Source: Bacteroidota bacterium
Lineage (GTDB): Bacteria > Bacteroidota > Ignavibacteria > Palsa-1295
Assembly (NCBI GenBank): GCA_030706385.1
Contig: JAUZOQ010000027.1
Location: forward strand, 1 to 35,899
Direction of reading: 5' to 3'
Length of the DNA stretch: 35,899 nt
The notes under the pieces were generated by a model that searched no databases, was not told the origin of the DNA, and saw nothing but the letters and a program-made list of their open reading frames with translations. Position numbers and translations under genes: made by a program. Position 1 is the stretch's first letter; every line of letters starts with the position of its first letter. This document shows, one piece after another, positions 5,625 through 20,808 of this stretch.

Positions 5625-5765
5625 TCTCTCCGGAGCTCCCGATCCGATTTGTAGATATCGAGAAAACGTGAATCCTTGCCGAAATCCAGCAGGGTTAAAT
5701 TCAGTGTAGTAAGCGAGTGCCGGTTTTTTCCCTAACCTGTAACTATTCTTTGTCTAATTCGTTGT

Positions 5766-5777
5766 GTGTTGTAACAC
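5766..5777 (+). promoter_or_regulatory. Short inverted repeat upstream of the TIGR03118 lipoprotein gene
   Basis: GTGTT-GT-AACAC lies 41-52 nt before the ATG at 5819, in the spacer that should hold this gene's promoter. Its size and position suit an operator, but it is short and may be coincidental. No T-run follows, so it is not a terminator. Confidence 0.2.
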
Positions 5778-5818
5778 GCATTCATCAATTGTATTCATTC
5801 ATTCAAGGAGAGATACAC

Positions 5819-6922
5819 ATGTCCACTACTACTAATAATATTCACAAATGGCTCGCCGCCATTGGTTTTCTGACTTTGTTCGTGCTTGCTTCATGCAAAA
5901 GTAGCACAAGTCCCACGACTACTCCGAGCACTCCCTTTGTCGAGACGGCTTTGGTCTCAGATACGCTTGGATATAATGCCGCATTGATAGATACTACCTT
6001 CGCAAACGGATGGGGTATTTCTGTCGGTCCGACTGGGTTGTTCTGGCTATCGTCAAATCATGGAGGCGTAACTGATATCTATGATGGGAACGGAGTTACC
6101 AAAAAAGCGCCTGTGACGATCCCTTCTAATAATGGTACAGATCCTGGAGCTCCAACCGGTGTGATCTATAATGGCACTGCAGATTTTGGATCATACCTTT
6201 TCATCTATGCCGGAGAGGACGGAATCATTGCCGGCTGGAAAGCTGCCAGTGGATCAAGCGCTGTAAAACTTGCTACGGATGCATCGTCCGGCGCAGTCTA
6301 TAAAGGAATTGCGATGGCAAGCACGGGTGGCAACAACTACCTATACGTTACAGATTTTGGAGAGAACAAGATCGTTGTCTACGATAAGAACTTCCAACCA
6401 GTCTCGATGACTTTCACCGAGGGCGGTTCGCCTGCAATACCGATTGGTACTCCAGGGTTCGGGCCGTTCGGAATCCAGAATATCGGAGGTTTGCTCTACG
6501 TAACCTACGCAAAACATAAACCTGCACCAGATGATGGTGACGATGCAGGCGGGGCAGGAAATGGATATGTTAGCGTATTCAAACCTGACGGCACATTTGT
6601 CAAGCGATTTGCTTCACAAGGCACACTCAGTTCGCCTTGGGGGATTGCTGTTGCACCTTCAACCTTCGGTCAATTCAAGAACGCTATCCTTGTCGCCAAT
6701 TTTGGTGATGGCACAATTAGCGGTTTTGATTCCACCGGAGCATCATTAGGACAGATCTCGACTGATGCGAACAACACACCGATGCATATTCCAGGAATAT
6801 GGGGACTCCTTTCGACCGGGTCGACCTCCTTAGGCAATGGTGATGTTCCCAACGCCCTTTACTTTACAGCTGGGCCGCACGAAGAGGACCACGGAATCTT
6901 CGGATATGTCTTACCTCAGTAA
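5819..6922 (+). CDS. TIGR03118 family lipoprotein, predicted beta-propeller-like
   Basis: This 367-residue exported protein resembles the uncharacterised TIGR03118 family, whose biochemical role I do not know. It has a lipoprotein signal peptide with lipobox LASC (Cys26) followed by a Ser/Thr/Pro linker. The mature part contains recurring segments of the sort seen in NHL/SMP-30-type propellers: NGWGISVGPTGLFWLSSN, YDGNGV, PTGVIYNG, LYVTDFGENKIVVYD, SPWGIAVAP and LVANFGDGTISGFD. The ATG at 5819 is supported by AAGGAGAG (5805-5812) six bases upstream, one of the best ribosome-binding sites in the window. An upstream in-frame start at 5717 would place about 34 residues before the signal peptide and is rejected. 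It is a single-gene unit closed by a terminator. Confidence 0.85.
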   Translation: MSTTTNNIHKWLAAIGFLTLFVLASCKSSTSPTTTPSTPFVETALVSDTLGYNAALIDTTFANGWGISVGPTGLFWLSSNHGGVTDIYDGNGVTKKAPVTIPSNNGTDPGAPTGVIYNGTADFGSYLFIYAGEDGIIAGWKAASGSSAVKLATDASSGAVYKGIAMASTGGNNYLYVTDFGENKIVVYDKNFQPVSMTFTEGGSPAIPIGTPGFGPFGIQNIGGLLYVTYAKHKPAPDDGDDAGGAGNGYVSVFKPDGTFVKRFASQGTLSSPWGIAVAPSTFGQFKNAILVANFGDGTISGFDSTGASLGQISTDANNTPMHIPGIWGLLSTGSTSLGNGDVPNALYFTAGPHEEDHGIFGYVLPQ

Positions 6923-7254: not shown

Positions 7255-7728
7255 ATGCTGAACGAATTTAGTCACGTATTTGCATTTTTTCTTCTTGCAA
7301 TAATCTTTGTTGCCGGGGGGATTATTTCCAACTACTTCATTCGGCCGCACAAACCGAATGAACTGAAGCTCTCCATTTATGAATGCGGCGAAGATCCCAT
7401 CGGCTCAAGTTGGCTGAAATTCAATATTCGTTTTTATGTCGTCGCTCTGATCTTTATCTTATTCGACGTCGAAATAGTTTTTCTTTTTCCATGGGCTGTT
7501 GTCTATAAGCAAATGGGAGTATTGGCATTTGCTGAGATGCTGGTATTCCTGGCAGTGCTCATAGTGGGGTTTGCGTACGTATGGGTTAAGGGCGATCTTG
7601 ACTGGGTACGGCCGAAACCTTATATTGCCAAACTTGACGATCTTATTTCACGCGACAAACCACGCATCATTCCGAGGCCGGTGCCAACCATGGCTCAGCC
7701 GGTGCCGGAAGAAGTTGTCGCAGGGTAA
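7255..7728 (+). CDS. nuoA: Complex I (NADH-quinone oxidoreductase) subunit A
   Basis: NuoA is a small membrane subunit near the quinone site of complex I. The 157-residue product has the expected three membrane segments (about 7-27, 62-82 and 90-112). The conserved loop after the first helix includes YECGEDP with the family Cys, and GSSWLKFNIRFYVVAL; the second helix contains IFILFDVEIVFLFPW. The C-terminal tail is hydrophilic and Pro-rich, slightly longer than in E. coli. It is the first gene of an operon continuing through nuoN. No clear Shine-Dalgarno site precedes the ATG. Confidence 0.96.
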   Translation: MLNEFSHVFAFFLLAIIFVAGGIISNYFIRPHKPNELKLSIYECGEDPIGSSWLKFNIRFYVVALIFILFDVEIVFLFPWAVVYKQMGVLAFAEMLVFLAVLIVGFAYVWVKGDLDWVRPKPYIAKLDDLISRDKPRIIPRPVPTMAQPVPEEVVAG

Positions 7729-7769
7729 TTCGAATTCTTAATTTGTGGGGCGGAGATTCTGATCCGTCT

Positions 7770-7789
7770 GAGAAGGCAAATACCTTCTC
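7770..7789 (+). other. Stem-loop between nuoA and nuoB
   Basis: GAGAAGG and CCTTCTC form a 7-bp stem with a 6-nt loop in the 102-nt gap between nuoA and nuoB. No T-run follows, so it is not a standard terminator. It may affect mRNA processing or stability. Confidence 0.45.
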
Positions 7790-7830
7790 TCCGGCACATC
7801 ATGGCCGGTCTGCAGCAAATCTAAACCTAG

Positions 7831-8331
7831 ATGGGACTTTTAGACAAACAAGATAATCCGTTCGAATCGAGCAATATCGTAATTACCGGTGCCGATACAC
7901 TGCTAAACTGGGCACGTTTATCAAGCTTATGGATGATGGGCTTCGGTTTAGCCTGTTGCGCGATCGAGATGATGGCAGCTTCCGCATCTCACTATGATAT
8001 CGGTCGTTTCGGTGTCATCCCCCGTCCGAGCCCACGTCAATCCGACATCATGCTTATCTCGGGTACTGTCACTCTGAAAATGGCTACGCGCACGAAACTG
8101 TTGTATGAGCAGATGCCAGATCCAAAGTACATTATTTCCATGGGTTCGTGCTCGAACTGTGGCGGACCGTATTGGGAACACGGATACCATGTCTTGAAGG
8201 GCGTCGATCGTGTCATTCCTGTTGATGTGTATGTTCCCGGCTGCCCGCCTCGTCCGGAAGCACTCTTGGAAGGATTGATCAAGGTGCAGGAAAAAGTGCG
8301 GAAACAATCGCTCGGAAAAACAACTGTATGA
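7831..8331 (+). CDS. nuoB: Complex I subunit B (cluster N2 subunit)
   Basis: NuoB holds the terminal [4Fe-4S] cluster N2 that passes electrons to quinone. In the 166-residue protein the four expected ligands are visible: the vicinal pair in GLACCAIEM (C42, C43), the Cys of SMGSC (C107) and the Cys of [10 protein letters not shown] (C138). The motif [14 protein letters not shown] is also characteristic. The N-terminus is short, without the extension seen in some proteobacteria. The gene lies between two intercistronic hairpins, more separated from its neighbours than most genes of this operon. Confidence 0.97.
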
Positions 8332-8337
8332 TTTGAT

Positions 8338-8364
8338 GATAAGCCGACTTCTCGTCGGCTTATC
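8338..8364 (+). other. Strong stem-loop between nuoB and nuoC
   Basis: Arms GATAAGCCGAC and GTCGGCTTATC form a perfect 11-bp stem with a 5-nt loop, beginning seven bases after the nuoB stop. CGAATATGAC follows rather than a T-run, so intrinsic termination is unlikely. It fits an mRNA-stabilising or processing hairpin. Confidence 0.6.
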
Positions 8365-8398
8365 CGAATATGACTTGATGTAGTGCGAACGTAAGAAA

Positions 8399-8899
8399 AT
8401 GACGAATACAGAAATTTACGATAAGCTTAAGTCGGCATTCGGCCCGGTAATCGGCGAGTGGCATGAACAAACAGGAGGGGAGTATATGAAGCGCCTGTCT
8501 TCGTATGCTGATGTTGCCGATACCAGCTTCATTCGCGACGTCTGCCTCTATCTTCGCGACGAACCGGGACTCGAATTTGATAGCTTGCTTCTTCTTTCCT
8601 CGGTTGATAATGGCGACAAGACTCTCTCCGTGGCCTATCACCTGGAATCGAAAACCATGAGGCATTATATCGCATTAAAGGTTACAGTACCTCTTGATAA
8701 TGCGATCGTGCCATCGGTCACGGAAGTATGGAGTCATGCCAATTGGCAGGAGCGCGAAGCATGGGACATGATGGGAATCAAATTTCTTAATCATCCCGAT
8801 ATGCGCAGAATACTGCTTGACGACGACTGGGTCGGACACCCGCTACGCAAGGACTATGTCTATCCCGATTATTACAGAGGAATGAAAGTACCGTACTAG
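8399..8899 (+). CDS. nuoC: Complex I subunit C
   Basis: NuoC (30-kDa subunit homologue) is part of the peripheral arm, packing against NuoD. The 166-residue protein shows the family signature WQEREAWDMMGIKFLNHPD followed by RRILLDDDWVGHPLRKDY, ending a few residues after the conserved DYVYP. It is a separate gene and not fused to nuoD as in E. coli. It starts with ATG at 8399, 34 nt past the hairpin, without a clear Shine-Dalgarno site. Confidence 0.95.
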   Translation: MTNTEIYDKLKSAFGPVIGEWHEQTGGEYMKRLSSYADVADTSFIRDVCLYLRDEPGLEFDSLLLLSSVDNGDKTLSVAYHLESKTMRHYIALKVTVPLDNAIVPSVTEVWSHANWQEREAWDMMGIKFLNHPDMRRILLDDDWVGHPLRKDYVYPDYYRGMKVPY

Positions 8900-8957
8900 A
8901 ATTTATCGGGGAGATCATGGAGATTTCCACCCCGCACTGGAACGAGAAACGAAATTT

Positions 8958-10157
8958 ATGGAAGTACTAGAGAGAAAAATGCAAACGCTGCCGGTTCCTA
9001 CAAAGGTTATCCCGGCAGAACAGATCGATCCGAAGAGGCTCCGAACGGAGGAGATGGTACTGAATGTCGGACCTCAGCATCCATCGACTCATGGCGTACT
9101 TCGTCTCGAGGCAGTGCTTGACGGCGAGTTAGTCATTGACGTCGTTCCATTTCTTGGTTATCTGCATAGATGCTTTGAAAAGCATGCAGAGGCAATGACC
9201 TATCCTCAGGTTGTTCCCTACGTCGACAGGATGGATTATCTTGCTCCGATGAACGGCGAACTTGGGTATGCTCTGGCCGTCGAGCGGATGATGGGAATCG
9301 AAGTGCCGGAGAAAGTCGAATACATCCGTGTACTCTTTAATGAACTGCAGCGAATCGCTTCGCATCTTGTTGCCGTAGGCACATTTGGAATGGATGCCGG
9401 CGCGTTTACTCCCTTCCTCTATTGTTTCCGCGACCGTGAAGATGTTTTAGAGATCTTTGAAAAAACATGCGGCGCACGCCTGCTCTACAATTATATCTGG
9501 GTAGGTGGCCTTTCTCATGATTTGCATCCCGATGTTTTATCGATGTGCCGTGCCTTTGTAAAGAAGAGCCGCGCCACTCATAAGGAGATCAACGAACTGC
9601 TTACGTTCAATAAGATCTTTGTCGAACGCGTTGCGAATATTGGAATTCTGAAACCCGATGTTGCGATCAATGGCGGAGCTTCAGGGCCGATGCTTCGCGG
9701 ATCTGGAGTGAAATGGGATTTGCGGCGTGACGATCCGTATTCGATTTATGACCGTTTCGAATTTGAAGTCCCGGTTGGAACGGGGATGATGGGTACGCTC
9801 GGAGATTGTTTTGACAGGCATTGGGTGAGAATGTGCGAGTGGGAGCAATCGCTTAATATCATTGAGCAAGTGCTTGAAAAATTTCCGCAGAACGATAAGA
9901 CCGATGTTCAGAAGGCTGTGCCGAAACGCATCAAGCCTGCGGCTGGTGAAATCTATTCGCGCGTCGAGACAGCTCGTGGAGAACTTGGATACTATATTAT
10001 CTCCAAAGATAACATCAATCCATGGCGAGTCAAAGTGCGTTCTCCAGCTTTTGTGAACTTGAGCCTGCTTCCGATCATTTCGCGTGGCTACTTGATGGCC
10101 GATCTGATCGTCATTCTAGGCTCCGTGGATATTGTGCTCGGAGAAGTGGACAGGTAA
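8958..10157 (+). CDS. nuoD: Complex I subunit D (49-kDa homologue)
   Basis: NuoD forms the quinone-binding pocket together with NuoB and is descended from the large subunit of [NiFe] hydrogenases. The 399-residue protein carries NVGPQHPSTHGVLRL (with the quinone-site His), GYLHRCFEKHAE, YVDRMDYLAPMNGE, FGMDAGAFTPF, and the closing segment SRGYLMADLIVILGSVDIVLGEVDR that is typical of the family. The hydrogenase nickel ligands are absent, as expected. The 58-nt gap from nuoC holds no gene. The start at 8958 gives a roughly 37-residue N-terminal extension before the conserved core; the Met at codon 8 is a possible alternative. Confidence 0.97.
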   Translation: MEVLERKMQTLPVPTKVIPAEQIDPKRLRTEEMVLNVGPQHPSTHGVLRLEAVLDGELVIDVVPFLGYLHRCFEKHAEAMTYPQVVPYVDRMDYLAPMNGELGYALAVERMMGIEVPEKVEYIRVLFNELQRIASHLVAVGTFGMDAGAFTPFLYCFRDREDVLEIFEKTCGARLLYNYIWVGGLSHDLHPDVLSMCRAFVKKSRATHKEINELLTFNKIFVERVANIGILKPDVAINGGASGPMLRGSGVKWDLRRDDPYSIYDRFEFEVPVGTGMMGTLGDCFDRHWVRMCEWEQSLNIIEQVLEKFPQNDKTDVQKAVPKRIKPAAGEIYSRVETARGELGYYIISKDNINPWRVKVRSPAFVNLSLLPIISRGYLMADLIVILGSVDIVLGEVDR

Positions 10158-10181: not shown

Positions 10182-11276
10182 ATGTTTCAAGACCTAAATC
10201 AATTTATCGTAAGTCTGATCGGCAAGGGCGACCTCTCTGATATCTTATCAGTAGTCGTGTATTCAGCATTACCGCTGGTCTTAATCCTACTCTATGCCCT
10301 CGTGGCGATTCTTGGAGAGATGAAGATTTCAGCTTGGCTTCAGGACCGATTGGGACCAATGCGAACGGGGCCTTATGGTATCCTTCAGCCCATAGCTGAC
10401 ATGTTGAAGCTCATCCAGAAGGAAGATACGACGCCAAAACTTGCCGATAAGAAGCTCTACAATGCAGCGCCGTTCATTGTTTTTATCGGAAGCTATATGG
10501 CGTTTGCAGCTCTTCCTTTTGCGGCGATGTATGCCGGTGCAAGGATTAACACAGGTATTTTTTATATCGTGGCTGTCAGTGGAGTGGTAGTCGTTGGAAT
10601 CTTGATGGCAGGGTGGGGATCGAACAATAAGTATGCGCTTCTCGGGTCGATGCGTTCAGTTGCCCAGATCGTCAGCTATGAGATTCCCGCCGGTCTGGCA
10701 ATATTATCAGTTGTAATGATAGCCGGAACAATGGATTTGCAGACGATCTCTCACTTGCAGCAAGGAGGATTACAGAACTGGTTCATATTCGGTGGTCCAA
10801 AATCACTTGCAGGATTCGGCGGCGGTTATGCCTGGATACTTACTCCGCTCATGGTTGTCTCCTTCCTGATCTATATCGTCGCATCGCTAGCGGAAACGAA
10901 TCGTGTTCCATTCGATATTCCGGAAGCTGAATCGGAACTTGTAGCAGGCTATCACACTGAATATTCTGCGATGAAATTCGCTCTGTTCTTTTTGGCTGAA
11001 TATGCTAATATGTTCGCCGTGAGTGCTATTGCTTCCGTGCTGTTTCTTGGCGGCTGGAATTCGCCGATTGCAGGATTTTTGGATGCTCCCTGGATGGGAG
11101 CGATCTGGTTTATCGGAAAGGCATTTAGTTTTGTTTTGATCCAAATTTGGATTCGCTGGACGCTTCCACGGTTGCGCGTAGATCAGTTAATGCATATTTG
11201 TTGGAAAGTGATGATCCCCTTCGGAATGGCAACAGTTCTTCTCGTCGGTACGATCGTGACGTTCCTAGCGCACTAA
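10182..11276 (+). CDS. nuoH: Complex I subunit H
   Basis: NuoH is the membrane subunit that joins the peripheral arm to the proton pumps and lines the quinone channel. The 364-residue protein has about eight membrane helices. Conserved pieces are [32 protein letters not shown] (split across the first cytoplasmic loop), [47 protein letters not shown] and the late [18 protein letters not shown]. All match the family closely. The following 71-aa gene starts directly after the stop codon, indicating tight co-translation. Confidence 0.97.
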
Positions 11277-11492
11277 ATGTGGAAACGTCGGCTTGTCTTT
11301 AACCTGATCTTTTTTATCGGTACGCTGATCGCCGGAATAGGCTGGCTCAGCGAACTGCGAGAATGGAATCTTCGGCTTGGCGATCTGGCGATTGCCGGAC
11401 ACGCAATCCAGATCGCAGGAATATTTGGAAATCTTCTGACGCCTGATGAAACAGGATTTGAAGAAGATCATAAGGAATTTGAAGACCAATAA
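11277..11492 (+). CDS. Small two-helix membrane protein inside the nuo operon (unknown)
   Basis: This 71-residue protein matches no complex I subunit I know. Its ATG follows the nuoH TAA with no gap, and its own TAA lies three bases before the nuoI ATG, so it is packed as tightly as the flanking subunits, which argues strongly for a real gene. It begins MWKRR, then has a hydrophobic helix (about 7-24, VFNLIFFIGTLIAGIGWL), a short loop with charged residues (SELREWNLRLGD), a second more moderate helix (about 36-53) and an acidic tail (EEDHKEFEDQ). The basic N-terminus and acidic C-terminus suggest a hairpin with both ends in the cytoplasm. It may be an accessory or assembly factor at the NuoH-NuoI interface; that is inference from position only. 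Confidence 0.8.
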   Translation: MWKRRLVFNLIFFIGTLIAGIGWLSELREWNLRLGDLAIAGHAIQIAGIFGNLLTPDETGFEEDHKEFEDQ

Positions 11493-11495
11493 CAC

Positions 11496-12173
11496 ATGAG
11501 CGGATATTTTAAGGATATACAAGAGGGAATCGGAACAGCATTCAAGGGAATGTCGATTGTCATGAAGCATCTTCTCAAGCCGAAGGTGACCAGGCAGTAT
11601 CCGAATCCCGAAGCTCGATTCCAGTTGCCGGAGCGCGCACGTAACAGGCTCTACGTCAATATGGATGATTGCATTGGCTGTGATCAGTGTGCGCGTGCTT
11701 GTCCGGTTAATTGTATTACTATTGATACTGCAAAGGCTATTGCAGGGGAAAACATCGGAACGACATCAAATGGGAAAAAGAAGTCTCTTTGGGTAACGCG
11801 CTTTGACATTGATATCGCAAAATGCTGTTACTGCGGACTCTGTGTATACCCTTGTCCAACAGAGTGTATCATCATGACGGACGTCTATGAGTTTTCGGAG
11901 TATGATCGTGTGAACCTCATCTATAACTACGCTACGATGGATGCGTCTGAGGCTGCCGAACATACGGAAAAAGCAAAAAAAGAGGATGAGCGACTTGCTG
12001 CCGAGCGAGCGAAACAAGCCGAGGAAAAGGCAAAAGCAGCAGCTGCGAATCCGCAGCCTGCCGCGCCGCCAGCTCCTGCGCCACAGGCGCCGCCTGCTGC
12101 CGGAGGCATAAAGCCCCCGCCGTTTGCTGCAAAACCCGGAGGGATCAAGCCGCCGCCCTTCAAAGCTGGATAA
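11496..12173 (+). CDS. nuoI: Complex I subunit I with unusual C-terminal tail
   Basis: NuoI carries two [4Fe-4S] clusters (N6a and N6b) that relay electrons to NuoB. Both ferredoxin motifs are intact: CIGCDQCARACP (C59, C62, C65, C69) and C110-x2-C113-x2-C116-x3-C120, read from CCYCGLCVYPCP. The core ends near residue 147. An extra tail of almost 80 residues follows: a charged Ala/Glu/Lys segment likely to form a helix or coiled coil (about 149-183), a Pro/Ala-rich linker (184-202), and two copies of a 12-residue unit beginning GGIKPPPF at 203 and 215. Family members are usually around 160-180 residues. The 3-nt gap from the 71-aa gene indicates coupling. Confidence 0.95.
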   Translation: MSGYFKDIQEGIGTAFKGMSIVMKHLLKPKVTRQYPNPEARFQLPERARNRLYVNMDDCIGCDQCARACPVNCITIDTAKAIAGENIGTTSNGKKKSLWVTRFDIDIAKCCYCGLCVYPCPTECIIMTDVYEFSEYDRVNLIYNYATMDASEAAEHTEKAKKEDERLAAERAKQAEEKAKAAAANPQPAAPPAPAPQAPPAAGGIKPPPFAAKPGGIKPPPFKAG

Positions 12174-12193: not shown

Positions 12194-12862
12194 ATGTTTG
12201 ACATAATTTTCTATATTTTCGGTGCAATAACGGTAGGCGGTGCTTTGGTAACGGCATTCGCAAGGAATATCGTATATGCTGCATTTTCACTGCTGTTTAC
12301 TTTCTTTGGGATTGCCGGGCTCTATATTATGGCCAACGCAGACTTCCTGGCAGTCACTCAGCTACTAGTTTATGTCGGCGGTATCTTGATCCTTTTGATT
12401 TTCGGCGTTATGTTGACGAGCCGGATCGGTACAGTGGATATTCGCGTAGGCACAGGATCCCGGTGGGTTGCGGGAATTATGGCTTTAGGACTTTTTGCGA
12501 TCTTATGCGCTGCATTTTTTGGTACTGCTGCAACCCATACAGAAAAGTCGGCCGATGGCAAATCGCAGGTCGTGACTTCATGGGCAACGCATGCGACACG
12601 CCCGTGGTCGGGCAGCAAGTGGAATCAGGATGCGACGACGGAAGCGTTGAAGCCAAAATATGGAGCCCCCGATGAGGTGAAATCGAATGAAGGATCTTCG
12701 GGTACTTCGGTTGAGATCGGAACACTCTTTCTTACTGATTATCTGCTTCCCTTCGAAGTTATTTCAGTATTGATCTTAGTATCGCTTCTTGGTGCAACGA
12801 TGATCGCGCGCAAAGAACCGACGAAAGAAGAAGAAGCCATCGCTGAATCGGTATCAGTTTAA
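12194..12862 (+). CDS. nuoJ: Complex I subunit J with enlarged loop
   Basis: NuoJ is a membrane subunit whose third helix undergoes a pi-bulge transition during coupling. The 222-residue product has the typical N-terminal helices and the motif FLAVTQLLVYVGGILILLIFGVM, split here for length, then two further hydrophobic segments. Between the last two helices there is a hydrophilic insertion of about 60 residues (about 113-172), rich in Thr, Ser, Lys and Glu. The C-terminus returns to a membrane helix (LLPFEVISVLILVSLLGA) with a charged end. E. coli NuoJ has 184 residues, so the extra length is mostly this loop. Confidence 0.93.
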   Translation: MFDIIFYIFGAITVGGALVTAFARNIVYAAFSLLFTFFGIAGLYIMANADFLAVTQLLVYVGGILILLIFGVMLTSRIGTVDIRVGTGSRWVAGIMALGLFAILCAAFFGTAATHTEKSADGKSQVVTSWATHATRPWSGSKWNQDATTEALKPKYGAPDEVKSNEGSSGTSVEIGTLFLTDYLLPFEVISVLILVSLLGATMIARKEPTKEEEAIAESVSV

Positions 12863-12872
12863 TACATTTATT

Positions 12873-13181
12873 ATGACAGTCGGACTAAATCATTTTCTCG
12901 TTATTGGCGCAATTCTCTTTGTGCTTGGGATCTTTGCCATGCTTTCGAGAAGGAATGTTATTGCTGTTCTTATGGGAGTCGAGCTCATCTTAAATGCGGC
13001 AAACATTAATTTTATTGCTTTCACGCGTTACGGTGGCGTGAACATCGGCGGGCAGATGGCTGCCATCTTTGTTATTGTCATTGCTGCCGGTGAAGCAGCC
13101 GTGGCGCTTGCCATTGTACTGAATATCTACAAGAACTTCAAATCGGTTAATCCATCCGAAGTGGATTCGCTCAGAGACTAA
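12873..13181 (+). CDS. nuoK: Complex I subunit K
   Basis: NuoK is a three-helix subunit of the membrane arm related to MrpC/MnhC of antiporters. The 102-residue protein shows GVELILNAANINFIAF, with the conserved Glu in the second helix, and a third helix containing IVIAAGEAAVALAIVLNIYK with the second conserved Glu; both are needed for proton pumping in the family. Length and topology are standard. The gene starts ten bases after nuoJ and ends six bases before nuoL. Confidence 0.96.
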   Translation: MTVGLNHFLVIGAILFVLGIFAMLSRRNVIAVLMGVELILNAANINFIAFTRYGGVNIGGQMAAIFVIVIAAGEAAVALAIVLNIYKNFKSVNPSEVDSLRD

Positions 13182-13187
13182 CGCTCT

Positions 13188-15368
13188 ATGGATCAACTCT
13201 TATCGCTATCGCTCATCATACTCGGGCTTCCGCTGCTCTCGTTCGTGATTATCATTTTTAATCAGAAACGTTTGCAACAGAAAGCCCATCTTATCGGCAT
13301 ACCGATACTTGGCATCGCTCTTGCACTTGCCATCTATATCTGCTATTCCAAACTCTCCGGCATTCCGGCAACTATTAACTGGTCAACGAAATGGATCAGT
13401 TTTGGCAATGTGCCTGGTGTTGGTGAGTGGAATCTGATGACGGGGATCATGATCGATAATCTCACTGCGATCATGCTCGTCGTTGTAACCCTTATTTCTT
13501 TCCTTGTTCATCTGTTCAGCAGCAAGTACATGGAAGGGGATATTCGCTATGCTCGATATTTTGCCTATCTCGGTATCTTTACATTTTCGATGTTGGGAAT
13601 CGTCATCGGCAATAATCTTTTCGCTCTCTATATTTTCTGGGAGCTTGTCGGATTCTCAAGTTATGCATTGATCTCGCACTGGTATGAGAAGCCGGGTCCG
13701 CAGCTCGCATCGAAAAAAGCCTTTATTGTCAATCGTGTCGGTGATGTTGGAATGTGGACGGGATTGATGTTGGTATTCGGAACATTCCATACGTTCAACT
13801 TTACTGATATCTTTGCCGCCATTCAACATGGCTTGCCGCAGAGCTTCAGTTTATTGGGAATGAGCCCTGAAGCGACACTTACGGCGGCAGGCGTCTTGAT
13901 CTTCTGCGGAGCTGTCGGTAAGAGCGCACAATTTCCACTTCATGTCTGGCTTCCGGATGCTATGGAAGGCCCTACGCCGGTATCTGCACTTATCCATGCA
14001 GCAACGATGGTTGCCGCCGGTGTCTATTTAGTCTGCAGAATATTCCCGATGCTCACAGGCGATGCAATGCTCGTGATCGCAATGGTTGGCGGATTCACCA
14101 GCTTCCTCGCCGCTACGATCGCACTGACAGCGAACGATATCAAGAAAGTACTTGCCTATTCGACGGTCTCGCAGCTTGGATACATGATCATGGCTCTTGG
14201 AGTAGGCGCTTTCAGTGCCGGTTTCTTCCATTTGACGACTCATGCGATGTTCAAGGCCTGCCTCTTTCTGGGATCGGGTTCAGTCATTCATGCCATGCAT
14301 CATTCGCTCCACCATTTGCATGATCACCATACCGATCCGCAGGATATGCGCAACATGGGTGGATTGCTTAAGAAAATGCCGATTACCGGTTATACCTTTA
14401 TCATTGCTACGCTTGCCATCAGTGGAATTCCCTTGATGAGTGGGTTCATGTCGAAAGATGAGATTCTTGCCGGTGCAACAGCGTACAGTTCGTTGCAGGG
14501 GGGTATCGCATCGGTTCTTCCATGGATTGGGTTCGGAGTAGCCATGATGACTGCCTTTTACATGTGGCGCCAGGTCTTCATGACGTTTTTCGGAAAACCG
14601 AAGAAACCCGAGATCTACGAACACATTCACGAATCACCGAAGGCAATGATCATCCCGCTTGTCATTCTCGCAGGACTATCGTTCTGGATCTGGTACGGAG
14701 CAAATCCGATCGATCCGGCAGGTGGCTGGTTTATGAAGAATTGGGCGAAGACCCCTGCGCAGATCGTACCGGTCGCAACGGCCGCACATTTCGGAGAAAG
14801 TCATAAGGTTGAAACGGAAGCTCCGAAGGTCGAAGCTAACGGTGCAGTAGAAACACATGCGGCTGAACCTATGGAGCATCAGGAGATACTTGAGCATAAG
14901 ACCCATGAAGTCGCTGGCACCGGCATGTTGATCTCTATCTTCATGGCGATCACCGGTATCGCGCTTGCGTGGTTCCTGTATATGAAGAATACAGCTCTAC
15001 CCGATAAGATCGCTAAGACATTTGCTCCGCTCTATCGACTGAGCGTGAATAAATGGTACATCGATGAGTTTTATGAATTCGCCTTTGTCGGGTCGTTCAT
15101 GCTTTTTGCACGCATGTGCGCATGGTTCGATACAAATATTATCGATGGAATCGTCAATACTGTCGGAAAGTCTACGGTAGTTGTCTCCAAGATCGGTGGA
15201 TGGTTCGATAAGTATATCGTTGATGGGATTGTGAATTTGACTGCAGGAATCACTCAGATCATCGGCATGGGATTCCGCTCCGTACAGACCGGCAAGATCC
15301 AGACATACCTGGCATGGACTCTTGCAGGAGTCGTCATTGTGTTTGCTATTATCGCATGGAAACTATGA
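13188..15368 (+). CDS. nuoL: Complex I subunit L (proton pump)
   Basis: NuoL is the distal antiporter-like pump with a long lateral helix. The 726-residue protein, longer than E. coli NuoL (613), carries FWELVGFSSYALISHW with the key Glu, GKSAQFPLHVWLPDAMEGPTP (split), ALIHAATMVAAGVYLV, and the conserved Lys-bearing region LAYSTVSQLGYMIMALG. The His-rich segment near HHLHDHHTDPQDMRNMGGL precedes LLKKMP. A His/Glu-rich hydrophilic loop (about residues 531-577) is inserted before the penultimate part, and the C-terminal lateral-helix region holds a near-duplicate WFD-x2-[IV]-x-DGIVN unit. The stop codon overlaps the next ATG by four bases. Confidence 0.96.
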   Translation: MDQLLSLSLIILGLPLLSFVIIIFNQKRLQQKAHLIGIPILGIALALAIYICYSKLSGIPATINWSTKWISFGNVPGVGEWNLMTGIMIDNLTAIMLVVVTLISFLVHLFSSKYMEGDIRYARYFAYLGIFTFSMLGIVIGNNLFALYIFWELVGFSSYALISHWYEKPGPQLASKKAFIVNRVGDVGMWTGLMLVFGTFHTFNFTDIFAAIQHGLPQSFSLLGMSPEATLTAAGVLIFCGAVGKSAQFPLHVWLPDAMEGPTPVSALIHAATMVAAGVYLVCRIFPMLTGDAMLVIAMVGGFTSFLAATIALTANDIKKVLAYSTVSQLGYMIMALGVGAFSAGFFHLTTHAMFKACLFLGSGSVIHAMHHSLHHLHDHHTDPQDMRNMGGLLKKMPITGYTFIIATLAISGIPLMSGFMSKDEILAGATAYSSLQGGIASVLPWIGFGVAMMTAFYMWRQVFMTFFGKPKKPEIYEHIHESPKAMIIPLVILAGLSFWIWYGANPIDPAGGWFMKNWAKTPAQIVPVATAAHFGESHKVETEAPKVEANGAVETHAAEPMEHQEILEHKTHEVAGTGMLISIFMAITGIALAWFLYMKNTALPDKIAKTFAPLYRLSVNKWYIDEFYEFAFVGSFMLFARMCAWFDTNIIDGIVNTVGKSTVVVSKIGGWFDKYIVDGIVNLTAGITQIIGMGFRSVQTGKIQTYLAWTLAGVVIVFAIIAWKL
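15123..15239 (+). repeat. Imperfect internal duplication in nuoL
   Basis: TGGTTCGATA occurs at 15123 and at 15201, 78 nt (26 codons) apart. Each copy opens a 12-residue unit (WFDTNIIDGIVN and WFDKYIVDGIVN, 9 of 12 identical). The units fall in the C-terminal lateral-helix region of NuoL. Codon choice differs between copies, so this is an old duplication or convergent motif, not a recent one. Confidence 0.6.
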
Positions 15369-17401
15369 GATCGAAGAACATTATATTCGTATTTGTGCTG
15401 GCATTAGCCGCTACCCTTGGCGGCCATCGTTCCATTCTTGCTCAGGCTCCGCTTTCTGTTGATGCGCCGAAAGTAATGGATGTCGTTCCGGGCGTCGTAT
15501 ACATTAATTTGAAGGCTAACCGAGGACTCGATCTGGCGAATATCAGTCCGACTCACACTGGCAACGCAGATTTGGACAATCTTTTTGCTCGCATAGGAGT
15601 AACGGAAGTTGTTCCCTTCTGTAGGGATCTGAAGGAAAATGCCGTCATTGATTATCATGGTTACGATGGAATTTTCGTAATTACCTTTTCTGCCGAAGGC
15701 CGCTCTCCTCGAGATATTGCGCATGACTTCCTGAAACTTGACGTCGTAAGTGGAGCGAGCCCTCGTTACAATTTTCAAAAGTGTTATACACCCAACGATC
15801 CCAGCATTACGACTGCATACGCGTTAAACAACAGTCACATGCATGTACTGGATGCTTGGGGAGTGTCAAAAGGCAATGCAAATATTATCATCGCCGATCT
15901 CGACGAAGGTGTCAATTATAATCACGAAGATCTCACAGCCAATATCTATAAACTAGGAAATTATTTTGGACGCGATATCGTCGGCGATAGCGGAACATCT
16001 CAGAAGTTCAAACCTGATAACGATCCGATGCCTGGTTTAGGCCAAAGCCATGGAACATTCACCACAGGTTGTTTTGGCGCAGTTGCCGATAATGGCAAAG
16101 GTGCAGCAGGCTCCGGATTCAACTGTAAGATCATGGCGATCAAGATCGCCGATAATGCAGGAAATCTCTTAGGTGGATATGAAGGAATAGCCTACGCATG
16201 GATGCATGGCGCGAAGATCCTCAATTGCTCATGGGGAGGATATGAGACCGATCCTTCACTCATCGATTTCTTTCAAACGTTCATCGATTCAGCAGTGGCC
16301 AATGGTGCCCTTATTGTCGCTGCTGCAGGCAATGATGCGCGGAACATCGATCAAGGTGGCAGCCATTTTATTCCAGCCTATCTGAAGAACGTCCTCACCG
16401 TTGGGGCGTCAGACATTAATGACCTGCCCGCAAGCTTCACAAATTTCGGAAAATCAGTTGACGTATACGCTCCTGGAGCAAACATTTTTTCCACGACTTT
16501 CCCTGGTAATAGCGCCTACGACCAGTCAAGCGGTACTTCGTTTGCGTGTCCTCTGACTTCCGGTGTGGCGGGATTGGTTTGGGCAAAGAATCCTACCTGG
16601 CTTCCCAAATTTGTAATGAGGCAGATCATTGAAACCTGTGATAATGTACTTCAACAATCCAGCCGAACAAATTACTGGGGTCGCGTGAATGCCTATAGTG
16701 CTCTCACGAAACCGACTATTGCAGGCTTAGGAATTACCGATTACAAGATCGATGGTGTCGATAAAGGAAGCTTGAATTACACGAATAAGGTCTATTCCAT
16801 CGATGTGAGTTTTAAGAATTACATGTTCGCCGGTTCCGGTATTCAGGCAAAGTTGTTGCCGATCGATGGGACGGTTTCCGATTATGGCGGCTATAAGGTT
16901 CAAGCAGGCACAGCCGCGTTGGGCTCCATAAGCGCGCAGCAGGAAGTCATAGGCTCCTTCAAGTTTAGCCGTGATGGAACCGATGGCGGAATGGGAGCGC
17001 AGCTTCCACTCTTCTTTGCAATTTCCTATGGTACTTCAGGATCGGGAAGTAAGTACTTTGATACTCTCGTCGTTTTCCTCGATATCAGTGGTGATAATAT
17101 CTTTGTGACTCAGGGAGTTTCAGAATCGGACGCCAAACTTGTCCGCCTTGAGCAGAATTTCCCGAATCCCGTTTCCGGTGAGGGCACGATCAGTTTCGAA
17201 CTTGCAGAGCAAGGTTATGCCAGGCTCTCTCTCACGGATATGCTTGGCAGAGAGAATCGAGTGCTTTCCGAAGGCATGCTCTCGGCAGGTACTCACAACG
17301 TTCAGTTCGACGCCCGTACTTTGGAAAATGGTGTGTATATGTACACCTTGGAGACCTTGGGCGGAGCAGTTGCTACGAAGCGGCTCGTCGTTATTCATTA
17401 A
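15365..17401 (+). CDS. Subtilisin-like S8 protease with T9SS sorting tail
   Basis: This is a secreted serine endopeptidase of family S8. From ATG 15365 the protein has 678 residues: a signal peptide (MRSKNIIFVFVLALAATLGG, ending near SILAQA), a propeptide-like region (about 30-160), the catalytic domain, and a C-terminal domain. The triad is intact: D180 in ADLDEGVN, H229 in SHGTFTTG and S392 in SGTSFACP, with the oxyanion Asn N323 in AAAGND. The end (about 593-678: LEQNFPNPVSG, LTDMLGRE, NGVYMYTL, KRLVV) is a T9SS type A sorting domain, so it is probably exported across the outer membrane. The ATG overlaps the nuoL stop (ATGA), and nuoM follows 30 nt later. An upstream in-frame start at 15314 would spoil the signal peptide. 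Its place inside a nuo operon is highly unusual. Confidence 0.93.
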   Translation: MRSKNIIFVFVLALAATLGGHRSILAQAPLSVDAPKVMDVVPGVVYINLKANRGLDLANISPTHTGNADLDNLFARIGVTEVVPFCRDLKENAVIDYHGYDGIFVITFSAEGRSPRDIAHDFLKLDVVSGASPRYNFQKCYTPNDPSITTAYALNNSHMHVLDAWGVSKGNANIIIADLDEGVNYNHEDLTANIYKLGNYFGRDIVGDSGTSQKFKPDNDPMPGLGQSHGTFTTGCFGAVADNGKGAAGSGFNCKIMAIKIADNAGNLLGGYEGIAYAWMHGAKILNCSWGGYETDPSLIDFFQTFIDSAVANGALIVAAAGNDARNIDQGGSHFIPAYLKNVLTVGASDINDLPASFTNFGKSVDVYAPGANIFSTTFPGNSAYDQSSGTSFACPLTSGVAGLVWAKNPTWLPKFVMRQIIETCDNVLQQSSRTNYWGRVNAYSALTKPTIAGLGITDYKIDGVDKGSLNYTNKVYSIDVSFKNYMFAGSGIQAKLLPIDGTVSDYGGYKVQAGTAALGSISAQQEVIGSFKFSRDGTDGGMGAQLPLFFAISYGTSGSGSKYFDTLVVFLDISGDNIFVTQGVSESDAKLVRLEQNFPNPVSGEGTISFELAEQGYARLSLTDMLGRENRVLSEGMLSAGTHNVQFDARTLENGVYMYTLETLGGAVATKRLVVIH

Positions 17402-17431: not shown

Positions 17432-19030
17432 ATGCTTGGCTTTCCGATCTTATCGATACTAACGCTCCTGCCCATTGCGGGAATGATCATCACGGCATTT
17501 GTGCCGAAGACGAATGTAAAAATGATTCGCGGTATTACCGTGGGGGTTACAGCCCTTCAAGTCATTTTTGCAATTGTTTTATGGGCAAATTTCAACGGGT
17601 CGATGGCCGGGATCAACGATCCGAAGGGATTCCAATTCGTCGAAAAGCACGAATGGATTCGTATCTCCGGCCTTGGTGTCTTCGGAAATGTAGCCATTGA
17701 TTATTTCATGGGAATTGACGGACTCTCCGTTCTCATGGTACTACTTACTGCGCTGATCTCATTCGTTGGAGCAATAGCAAGCTTCTCAATTGAGAAACAG
17801 CATAAAGGATACTTCCTCATGTATCTGCTCTTGGTAACGGGCATGATGGGTGTATTCTGCGCTTTGGACTTCTTCCTCTTCTATGTGTTTTGGGAGTTGA
17901 TGCTGTTGCCGATGTACTTCCTGATCGGTATTTGGGGAGGTCCGCGCCGCGAGTATGCTGCGATCAAGTTCTTCATCTACACACTTTTCGGATCCGTCTT
18001 CATGCTCTTAGTGATGATCGGATTGTATTTCACGACTCAGGTTCAGATCGGAGGAGTATCCTGGCATACCTTCAGCATCCTCGATATGATGAATCCGGCC
18101 AATCATGTTACGGGTTCGATCTTTGCAACGATCGGTAATACCTGGCGATACGTGGGATATCTCGGACTCTTTTTGGGCTTTGCCATTAAGATACCGATGT
18201 TTCCGTTTCATACCTGGCTTCCGGATGCTCACGTTGAGGCGCCGACAGCAATATCCGTCATTCTTGCCGGCGTTCTTCTGAAAATGGGTACCTATGGCAT
18301 TCTGCGGATCTGCTATGGTATTTTCCCTGAGATCGCTGTTGCCACAAGCCAATACATGGTGATCTTCGGAGTCATCAATATCGTCTATGGTGCATTCTGC
18401 GCAATGGCACAGAAGGATCTGAAGAAACTGATAGCCTACAGTTCTATCAGCCATATGGGATACGTCATGCTTGGCATGGCAGCATTGAACTCGCAGGGTA
18501 TGATGGGAGCAATATTTCAAATGTTCAACCACGGTACGATCACGGCGATGCTTTTCTTAAGTGTCGGTGTTCTTTATGACCGCGCACATACCAGAGGATT
18601 GAACGAGTTCGGCGGACTGGCGAACAAGATGCCGAAGTATTTCGCACTGGTCGTCATCTGCTACTTCGCATCGCTCGGCCTTCCGGGCATGTCGGGATTC
18701 ATCTCCGAGGCATTCGTATTTCTCGGTGCGTTCCAGACTTTCCAGTTCTGGACTATCGTCTCGACGCTTGGAATTATCCTGACGGCGGCGTATATGCTTT
18801 GGGCGTTGCAGAGAATGTTCCTTGGCACCTTGCCCGAGCGTTGGAATAATCTCACCGATATTAACGGACGCGAGCTCGTTGCTCTTGTTCCGCTGGCGGC
18901 AATCGTGATCTTCCTGGGTATCTATCCGGCACCGATCATAAATCTTATGTCAACGAGCGTCAATCAACTCGTTACCTTTGTCAATGCTGCAGGACCGAAG
19001 GTGATGCAAGCCGCCTCGATCGTACGATAA
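17432..19030 (+). CDS. nuoM: Complex I subunit M (proton pump)
   Basis: NuoM is the second antiporter-like pump. The 532-residue protein has about 14 membrane helices with FYVFWELMLLPMYFLIGIWGG (split; contains the essential Glu), GFAIKIPMFPFHTWLPDAHVEAPT (split), SVILAGVLLKMGTYGILR, LKKLIAYSSISHMGYVMLG and ALGLPGMSGF-like SLGLPGMSGFISE. The ORF begins 30 nt after the protease stop, so it stays in the same transcription unit. Length is close to other NuoM proteins (about 500-530). Confidence 0.96.
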   Translation: MLGFPILSILTLLPIAGMIITAFVPKTNVKMIRGITVGVTALQVIFAIVLWANFNGSMAGINDPKGFQFVEKHEWIRISGLGVFGNVAIDYFMGIDGLSVLMVLLTALISFVGAIASFSIEKQHKGYFLMYLLLVTGMMGVFCALDFFLFYVFWELMLLPMYFLIGIWGGPRREYAAIKFFIYTLFGSVFMLLVMIGLYFTTQVQIGGVSWHTFSILDMMNPANHVTGSIFATIGNTWRYVGYLGLFLGFAIKIPMFPFHTWLPDAHVEAPTAISVILAGVLLKMGTYGILRICYGIFPEIAVATSQYMVIFGVINIVYGAFCAMAQKDLKKLIAYSSISHMGYVMLGMAALNSQGMMGAIFQMFNHGTITAMLFLSVGVLYDRAHTRGLNEFGGLANKMPKYFALVVICYFASLGLPGMSGFISEAFVFLGAFQTFQFWTIVSTLGIILTAAYMLWALQRMFLGTLPERWNNLTDINGRELVALVPLAAIVIFLGIYPAPIINLMSTSVNQLVTFVNAAGPKVMQAASIVR

Positions 19031-19089
19031 AGCTTCAGGCTATTATTGCAGGAGAGATGATCAATAGCAATCCATCATAAAGTTACAGG

Positions 19090-20808
19090 ATGAATCCAAA
19101 TATTATTAATCCGCAAGAACTGGCGAAGCTTTTCGCTCCGCTCGTGAAGACCAGTATGTCGCATTTCCTGCCGGAGACTATTCTCACGGTTGGTTTTCTG
19201 CTTGCTATCATACTTGATCTTTTGATCAAGAAGTCGAGCCAGAAAAAACTTACCGGTTACTTTGCACTTATCGTTCTTGCTGCAGCATTTGTGACTTCAT
19301 GGATGCAATGGCAGCCGTATGTAGAAGGAAGCACTACATGGAAAGGCGGCTCCATGATCTTCCCGTATATGACGACCCTTATTCCGCAAATCGGCATGGC
19401 TGTAGTCGATAATTTTGCAGTCTTTTTCAAGTTGTTGATCTCCTTGTCTGCGATGCTGATCGTACTCATGTCGATGCTCTCGCGTGAAGTCGAAGAGCGG
19501 GGAAGACATAATGGAGAATACTTCGCATTGCTTCTGGCCCTTACACTGGGCATGTTCCTAATGCCTGCGGCAACGGATCTGGTGATGATGTATATATCAC
19601 TTGAACTCGTTTCGATCACGAGCTACATCATGGTTGGCTTCATGAAAGAGAACTCGCGGAGTTCGGAAGCCTCGATGAAATACGTTCTCTTTGGCGCATT
19701 CAGCTCCGGCTTGATGATCTATGGATTTTCGATTCTCTATGGGCTAACCGGAACAACGAGCATTGTTGGCATTCAGGCGGTACTTCAGTCGGGTATGGAA
19801 GCCCATACTGTTAATCAATTAGCTCTTTGGGTAGGCGTCATTCTCTCCTTGGCCGGCATGGGCTATAAGATCAGCGCTGCGCCATTTCATTTCTGGACGC
19901 CTGACGTTTATGAGGGTGCTCCGATTCCGATCACAGCCTTGCTTTCTGTTGCCTCGAAAGCCGGCGGGTTTGGTCTCTTGATGAGATTTCTGATGTTCGG
20001 CTTTCCTGTTGATTTTCAGACCGGAAAATTACTGCTTAACTGGCCGCTCGTCGTTGCCGTACTTGCTGCAGTCACGATGACTCTCGGAAATTTTGCTGCG
20101 CTCCGCCAATCGAACATCAAGCGAATGCTTGCCTACTCGACGATCGCTCACGCTGGTTATATGATGGTTGGTCTCGTTGCCGTCGGAAGCGGTCTATTCA
20201 TGCTTGCCGAAGTGCGATCGGTAGGGTTTCATAAGGAGTTGTTGCCACATTTCTATGAAATGAGCGGAATGGTCTCCGTTATGATCTATCTTGTAGCTTA
20301 TCTATTTACGAATTTGGGAGCATTCTACGTCATTATGCTGATCGCCAATAAGATCGGCTCCGAAGAGATCGAGGATTACAAGGGATTCGCAAAGAAGTCT
20401 CCGCTCTTGGCTGTCAGCCTCGGAATATTCTTAGTATCACTGACAGGAATTCCGCTTACTGTCGGCTTCATTGGGAAATTGTATATATTCTCTTCCATTC
20501 TGACTGCAGATCCGATAACGCATGCCACGCCATGGGTCTGGCTTGCCGTTGTCATGGTGCTGAACTCGGTGGTTTCGTTGTACTACTACGTTCGAGTCAT
20601 GCAGGCGATGTTCATCAAGCAGGCGGATGCGCAGACCGCGCCGCTGACAAGCGCTCTCTCTGTGGGGCCTGATGGTACGTTGAGTTATTCACTGATCTCG
20701 AAGATCTTCATCTTTGCTTTCCTGGTCCCCACGATCGTGCTCGGCGTTTATTTTCAACCCGTCGTGGATTTCACAAGCAATGTGGTGCGCTTCTTCTCAT
20801 TACAATAA
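19090..20808 (+). CDS. nuoN: Complex I subunit N (proton pump)
   Basis: NuoN is the third antiporter-like pump, adjoining NuoK. The 572-residue protein is longer than E. coli NuoN (485). Motifs include MMYISLELVSITSYIMVGF with the key Glu, GMGYKISAAPFHFWTPDVYEGAP (split), SVASKAGGFGLLMRF, IKRMLAYSTIAHAGYMMVGL and SLTGIPLTVGFIGK. Extra length comes from the N-terminus, a hydrophilic stretch after the YMMVGL helix (near residues 375-395), and a polar insert before the last helix. The 59-nt gap from nuoM contains no gene. The rhodanese gene follows after nine bases. Confidence 0.96.
   Translation: MNPNIINPQELAKLFAPLVKTSMSHFLPETILTVGFLLAIILDLLIKKSSQKKLTGYFALIVLAAAFVTSWMQWQPYVEGSTTWKGGSMIFPYMTTLIPQIGMAVVDNFAVFFKLLISLSAMLIVLMSMLSREVEERGRHNGEYFALLLALTLGMFLMPAATDLVMMYISLELVSITSYIMVGFMKENSRSSEASMKYVLFGAFSSGLMIYGFSILYGLTGTTSIVGIQAVLQSGMEAHTVNQLALWVGVILSLAGMGYKISAAPFHFWTPDVYEGAPIPITALLSVASKAGGFGLLMRFLMFGFPVDFQTGKLLLNWPLVVAVLAAVTMTLGNFAALRQSNIKRMLAYSTIAHAGYMMVGLVAVGSGLFMLAEVRSVGFHKELLPHFYEMSGMVSVMIYLVAYLFTNLGAFYVIMLIANKIGSEEIEDYKGFAKKSPLLAVSLGIFLVSLTGIPLTVGFIGKLYIFSSILTADPITHATPWVWLAVVMVLNSVVSLYYYVRVMQAMFIKQADAQTAPLTSALSVGPDGTLSYSLISKIFIFAFLVPTIVLGVYFQPVVDFTSNVVRFFSLQ

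Follow-up and report, generated by a model that had tools for sequence, protein, structure and literature searches.

In the nuo operon of an Ignavibacteria genome, a short open reading frame (ORF) lies between nuoH and nuoI, which raises the question of whether it encodes a protein and, if so, whether that protein works with complex I. The window, that is, the whole stretch of DNA that was analyzed, comprises 35,899 nucleotides. A sequence-only reading had described the ORF product as an unrecognized two-helix protein locked between nuoH and nuoI, and had proposed a lineage-specific accessory or assembly subunit.

The host operon

The features of the window operon are the following.

7255..10157, + strand: nuoA, nuoB, nuoC and nuoD, the upstream part of the operon (Pfam)
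10182..11276, + strand: nuoH, 364 aa (Pfam NADHdh, E 2.7e-115; end set by the junction letters)
11277..11492, + strand: gene for the 71-aa two-helix membrane protein, with an ATG start; homologues have about 67-97 aa
11496..12173, + strand: nuoI, 225 aa; C-terminal tail rich in proline (Fer4 and NuoI models)
12194..15368, + strand: nuoJ, nuoK and nuoL (Pfam)
15314..17401: subtilase with a Por_Secre_tail sorting domain, between nuoL and nuoM (Pfam)
17432..20808, + strand: nuoM and nuoN (Pfam)

All eleven expected core genes (nuoABCDHIJKLMN) are present in the operon, and the ORF is additional to them. Because nuoE, nuoF and nuoG were not found in the window operon, it is of the 11-subunit type; the window belongs to contig C82, whereas the NuoF-family matches of this genome were located on C93 and C79. 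The junction letters, TAA-ATG, confirmed that the ORF start abuts the nuoH stop (nuoH ends at 11276, gap 0 nt) and that 3 nt separate the ORF from nuoI, which starts at 11496. This spacing had been called tighter than at most junctions of the operon, and it is: the remaining nuoA-nuoL junctions measure 102, 67, 58, 24, 20, 10 and 6 nt.

The operon also holds a gene from outside the nuo set, the subtilase, whose first possible start overlaps nuoL. Its homologues were found at the nuoL-nuoM junction in six relatives (G002, G003, G008, G009, G010 and G012) and beside nuoL in G007, and the gene is kept in every genome of the family with a readable nuoL-nuoM junction. We know of no evident use that complex I could make of a secreted protease. 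Since this unrelated gene is equally conserved at its junction, synteny alone proves little about the ORF.

A gene under purifying selection

From base composition alone, a 70-codon open frame is expected at one given position with a probability of about 0.026, which is not very rare, and hence the length of the ORF is weak evidence by itself. The ORF is conserved across relatives, however, and is therefore more than a chance frame. When two congeneric genomes were compared, the proteins were 71-72% identical, substitutions by codon position numbered 15/11/37, and dN/dS was 0.085, with synonymous sites near saturation. The shifted frames of the ORF carried 4-7 stops and gave ratios >1. The ORF is a real gene under purifying selection. 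The contrary reading, of a chance open frame or of a true gene in the antisense ORF 11265-11570, is refuted by the conservation in 11 genomes, the codon-position bias in the plus frame, the stops in the shifted frames and the finding that, read in antisense, the congeneric genome has stops in all three frames; we give it practically no credence. The value of pN was 0.181 for the ORF versus 0.052 for nuoH and 0.053 for nuoI, so that the ORF is constrained, yet more loosely than the core subunits.

Distribution across genomes

A protein search of 41 genomes found the ORF in 11, all of the window's family, and a profile search of the class, covering 197 genomes, returned the same 11 and nothing else; none of the 184 sampled class genomes outside the family carries it. 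A search across the phylum, less sensitive than the class search because at most 14 first-look candidates were scored per genome, gave no convincing genome with the ORF outside the family. Three weak matches in the phylum (E 0.0047-0.0067) were dropped because their loci held no nuo genes. G003 gave a further weak match beside its main one (E 0.0016), which was discarded because its locus had no NuoH match.

Within the family, 11 of 13 genomes have the ORF. The two others, G004 and G005, are each 67% complete, and neither yielded a NuoI match at E 1e-30; NuoH was not found in G004, and in G005 only a second type of NuoH was found (see below). As both ORF-less genomes lack the first-type nuoH, the ORF is present in all 11 genomes that have it. 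A homologue search with dN/dS had been suggested as the check on the sequence-only reading, which was to fall if relatives with the same junction did not keep the frame; the frame is conserved in every genome with this nuoH.

Sequence features and family searches

Kyte-Doolittle analysis of the window protein gave hydrophobic segments at residues 6-24 and 37-55, and the net charges of the N-terminus, loop and C-terminus are +3, -1 and -7, in agreement with the two membrane helices and oppositely charged ends noted earlier. Two hydrophobic segments recur in all 11 homologues, as does an acidic C-terminal part (net -2 to -9). In eight of them the N-terminal part carries a net positive charge; in two its net charge is zero, and in one, whose row was cut short of its start, it is -1. 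In the alignments the row of G010 starts slightly downstream of the likely ATG, by a few codons, and the starts of several homologues (GTG or TTG) were guessed, which affects the lengths but not the core. Judging by the charges of the window protein, the topology would be N-in/C-in. Nine positions are invariant among the 11 homologues: F12, G15, A19, G22, W23, G41, H42, Q45 and P56. H42 was considered as a heme or quinone ligand, and a single invariant histidine was judged insufficient support. AlphaFold2, run with 8 sequences, predicted helices at 2-27, 35-54 and 59-69 (mean pLDDT 73.7; pTM 0.43).

The description of the protein as unrecognized was borne out. Pfam and NCBIfam searches with the ORF and the 11 homologues gave no family above threshold, and the ORF matches none of the 14 Nuo families in these databases. 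MARVEL (E 0.12), DUF6944 (E 0.015) and DUF751 (E 0.016) were rejected as not significant and as differing between members. DUF5337 (PF17272), a family of small proteins encoded in the nuo operons of some Alphaproteobacteria, was matched by one of the 11 members, not significantly (E 0.071); its name did not occur in our literature search. A search of PDB sequences gave nothing beyond one match at E 6.7, and a search of PDB folds gave 39 matches, the best at E 1.4, none significant and none a complex I subunit. Generic hairpins made up the fold matches, the PorLM/GldLM motor and designed coiled coils among them, and this null result says little because the pTM of the model is 0.43. In the titles and abstract beginnings of open-licence literature on complex I accessory subunits, nuoH/nuoI and Kapabacteria, no small protein at the nuoH-nuoI junction was mentioned. 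The ORF thus represents a real protein family, so far unnamed, that is found in one bacterial family only.

Linkage to nuoH

In all 11 genomes, the ORF has a start codon at -4 to +19 nt relative to the nuoH stop; in G008, G010 and G011 the two genes truly overlap. In contrast, nuoI is displaced (by at least 0.7 kb or onto another contig) in 5 of the 11: between the ORF and nuoI lie about 0.7 kb in G011, 0.9 kb in G008, 1.4 kb in G007 and 3.0 kb in G009, while G012 carries nuoI on a separate contig from nuoH and the ORF. The nuoH-ORF pair of G012 (L163:7511-8861, on C1) stands alone among unrelated genes; nuoD was located on C9, and nuoI through nuoN on C47. In G007 and G008, about 0.6 kb also separates nuoD from nuoH. 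The operon is broken around the nuoH-ORF pair and never inside it, as nuoI and nuoD are displaced while the pair is kept. The constant partner of the ORF is nuoH, and the view that it is locked between nuoH and nuoI was too specific, given the displacement of nuoI.

The genes inserted between the ORF and nuoI in G007 (L027:4737-5326) and G008 (L159:12451-13102) resemble a putative toxin-antitoxin pair with a PIN-like toxin.

These arrangements also bear on the idea that the ORF is a cis-acting element of translational coupling, whose peptide is irrelevant and which merely carries ribosomes from nuoH to nuoI. Spacing as close as 0 and 3 nt, as seen in the window, would suit such an element. However, the amino-acid sequence is under selection and has nine invariant residues, and nuoI does not adjoin the ORF in 5 of the 11 genomes. 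A peptide-irrelevant coupling element is thus largely refuted, and we regard it as very improbable.

A second complex I without the ORF

Nine genomes of the family, including that of the window, possess a second, divergent nuoH-nuoI set. The second nuoH is 47-50% identical to the first in full-length matches and 43-55% in the split matches of G003, G009 and G010. No ORF match lies between the second nuoH and nuoI in any of the nine cases; in eight of them nuoH and the start of the NuoI match are about 0.1 kb apart, and in G012 about 0.78 kb. The NuoF gene is on another contig for one second set (L127, G000:C96) and about 59 kb away for another (L131, G002:C5:63394). Two sets of nuo genes are also mentioned for a related organism (PMC6338057).

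Outside the family, 73 nuoH loci, queried with the window ORF alone and without a profile, gave no ORF match. In 72 of them nuoI lies downstream (L039 ends before nuoI), and the estimated nuoH-nuoI gap is at most 132 nt in 69 of these 72. The exceptions are L064 (414 nt), L082 (234 nt) and L083 (1675 nt), where the intervening ORFs are unlike the ORF protein. L083 contains a 560-aa ORF without a scored segment; nested out of frame in it is a 39-aa frame with two segments by a crude hydropathy count.

In a tree of 92 NuoH proteins, the 11 ORF-linked ones formed one clade (SH-aLRT 99), and 8 second-type proteins formed another; the tree takes 8 of the 9 second-type rows, the G005 protein, a 1-residue row, having been left out. 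Six positions separate the 11 from the rest: M47, Y93, R121, G146, V242 and I324. The tree is a quick one whose root was not inferred, and it therefore cannot by itself tell gain from loss. The single clade of the 11 ORF-linked nuoH genes suggests, as the simplest account, that the ORF was gained once, where the first-type nuoH of the family arose.

A possible role on NuoH

The protein probably has an accessory-subunit role. In the proposed mechanism, ribosomes ending nuoH would re-initiate at the overlapping or abutting start of the ORF, so that the protein would be made in step with NuoH and inserted into the inner membrane as a hairpin of N-in/C-in topology. Helix 1 might pack on a neighboring helix through its small-residue face (G15, A19 and G22). 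Helix 2, through its polar face (H42 and Q45), and the acidic tail might together help to keep NuoH, the complex's heel or its bound lipids in place. The protein would then stay bound to NuoH, perhaps in stoichiometric amounts, and could influence quinone access. A lineage-specific accessory subunit on NuoH of the family's 11-subunit, nuoEFG-less complex I is a proposal to which we give about even chances. Of the earlier suggestion, a genuine lineage-specific two-helix protein of the complex I operon has stood the analysis, and a role as a subunit or in assembly is putative. A gene conserved with the genes of the complex throughout its lineage is what an accessory subunit should have, and the ORF shows this in all 11 genomes with this nuoH. 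Its faster evolution than nuoH suits an accessory role, and equally a loosely constrained passenger.

Much of the same evidence would fit an assembly or membrane-insertion factor, a hairpin that binds nascent NuoH, aids its insertion or its pairing with partners, and is then released. The linkage to nuoH speaks equally for this reading and for a subunit, as do most other facts; a start right behind nuoH in 11 of 11 genomes would suit a factor required while NuoH is emerging from the ribosome, and faster evolution than nuoH would suit it as well. Against it, no such ORF accompanies the second nuoH or the 73 other nuoH loci inspected, and the protein has no likeness to any Pfam or NCBIfam family. 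We hold an assembly factor to be unlikely, though a serious contender. The ORF could also encode a membrane protein whose function has nothing to do with complex I, one that entered the operon a single time and was retained through operon conservation. The persistent subtilase at nuoL-nuoM shows that an unrelated gene can last in these operons, which counts against the subunit reading, as do the low pTM and the lack of a significant fold match, and the confinement of the ORF to one family is likewise what a passenger would show. Unlike nuoI, however, the ORF never leaves nuoH, even where the operon is scattered, and its start overlaps nuoH or lies close to it in every one of the 11 genomes. 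We rate a passenger as less likely, slightly below an assembly factor.

Comparison with known systems

The nearest likeness to the proposed accessory subunit is NdhL of the cyanobacterial, ferredoxin-fed NDH-1. This two-helix protein lies on NdhA, the homologue of NuoH, where the quinone cavity opens and lipids are bound, and its loss leaves almost no activity (PMC7021789). With 71 aa and two helices, the ORF protein is small like NdhL (PF10716) and falls within the pattern of about 70-80 aa and two helices. NdhL contacts NdhA near the quinone cavity, whereas the tie of the ORF protein to nuoH is known here from gene linkage. An accessory hairpin would fit an NdhL-like role because it is made directly after NuoH and is kept through operon breakage. 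None of the 11 members of the ORF family matches PF10716 at E up to 5, however, and in the window genome the two matches to this model, of 12.7 and 12.3 bits, stay below the cut-off of 25 and lie away from the ORF, on contigs C91 and C126; by record names, NdhL belongs to a different lineage. The likeness is therefore one of working, not of kinship. By analogy, the protein might be an independently evolved counterpart of NdhL on NuoH, marking an NADH-independent complex I isoform outside oxygenic phototrophs as opposed to the second complex I, with an invariant, membrane-embedded His/Gln pair for contacts with quinone, lipid or a cofactor; this is a speculative extension that we think doubtful. 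A conserved, isoform-specific extra membrane protein would provide a second case beside NdhL for comparison.

Supernumerary subunits of complex I occur in other bacteria, Nqo15 of Thermus among them. In Paracoccus, the lineage-specific extra subunits NDUFS4, NDUFS6, NDUFA12 and a PIMT subunit are described (PMC11522691). Like these, the ORF would be a lineage-restricted addition to a bacterial core complex; the Paracoccus extras described there sit on the hydrophilic domain and heel, whereas the ORF protein is a predicted membrane hairpin.

For Melioribacter roseus, a nuoEFG-less cluster has been reported, with a donor other than NADH, e.g., ferredoxin, proposed (PMC3534657). The window operon is, on that description, of the same nuoEFG-less 11-subunit type as in M. 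roseus and other Ignavibacteria; the locus labelled M. roseus (L038) gave no ORF match. An account of the Desulfitobacterium enzyme considers the electron donor of 11-subunit enzymes unresolved and additional subunits possible, with biochemistry needed (PMC11238625). As to electron uptake and extra subunits of nuoEFG-less complexes, the ORF gives a concrete handle in one family.

Other features of the operon

Ahead of nuoA lies a 401-aa ORF (5717-6922) with no Pfam match at E 1e-5. NuoI (11496-12173) bears a long Ala/Pro-rich C-terminal tail, apparently unusual for this subunit, which ends in two GGIKPPPF-type repeats.
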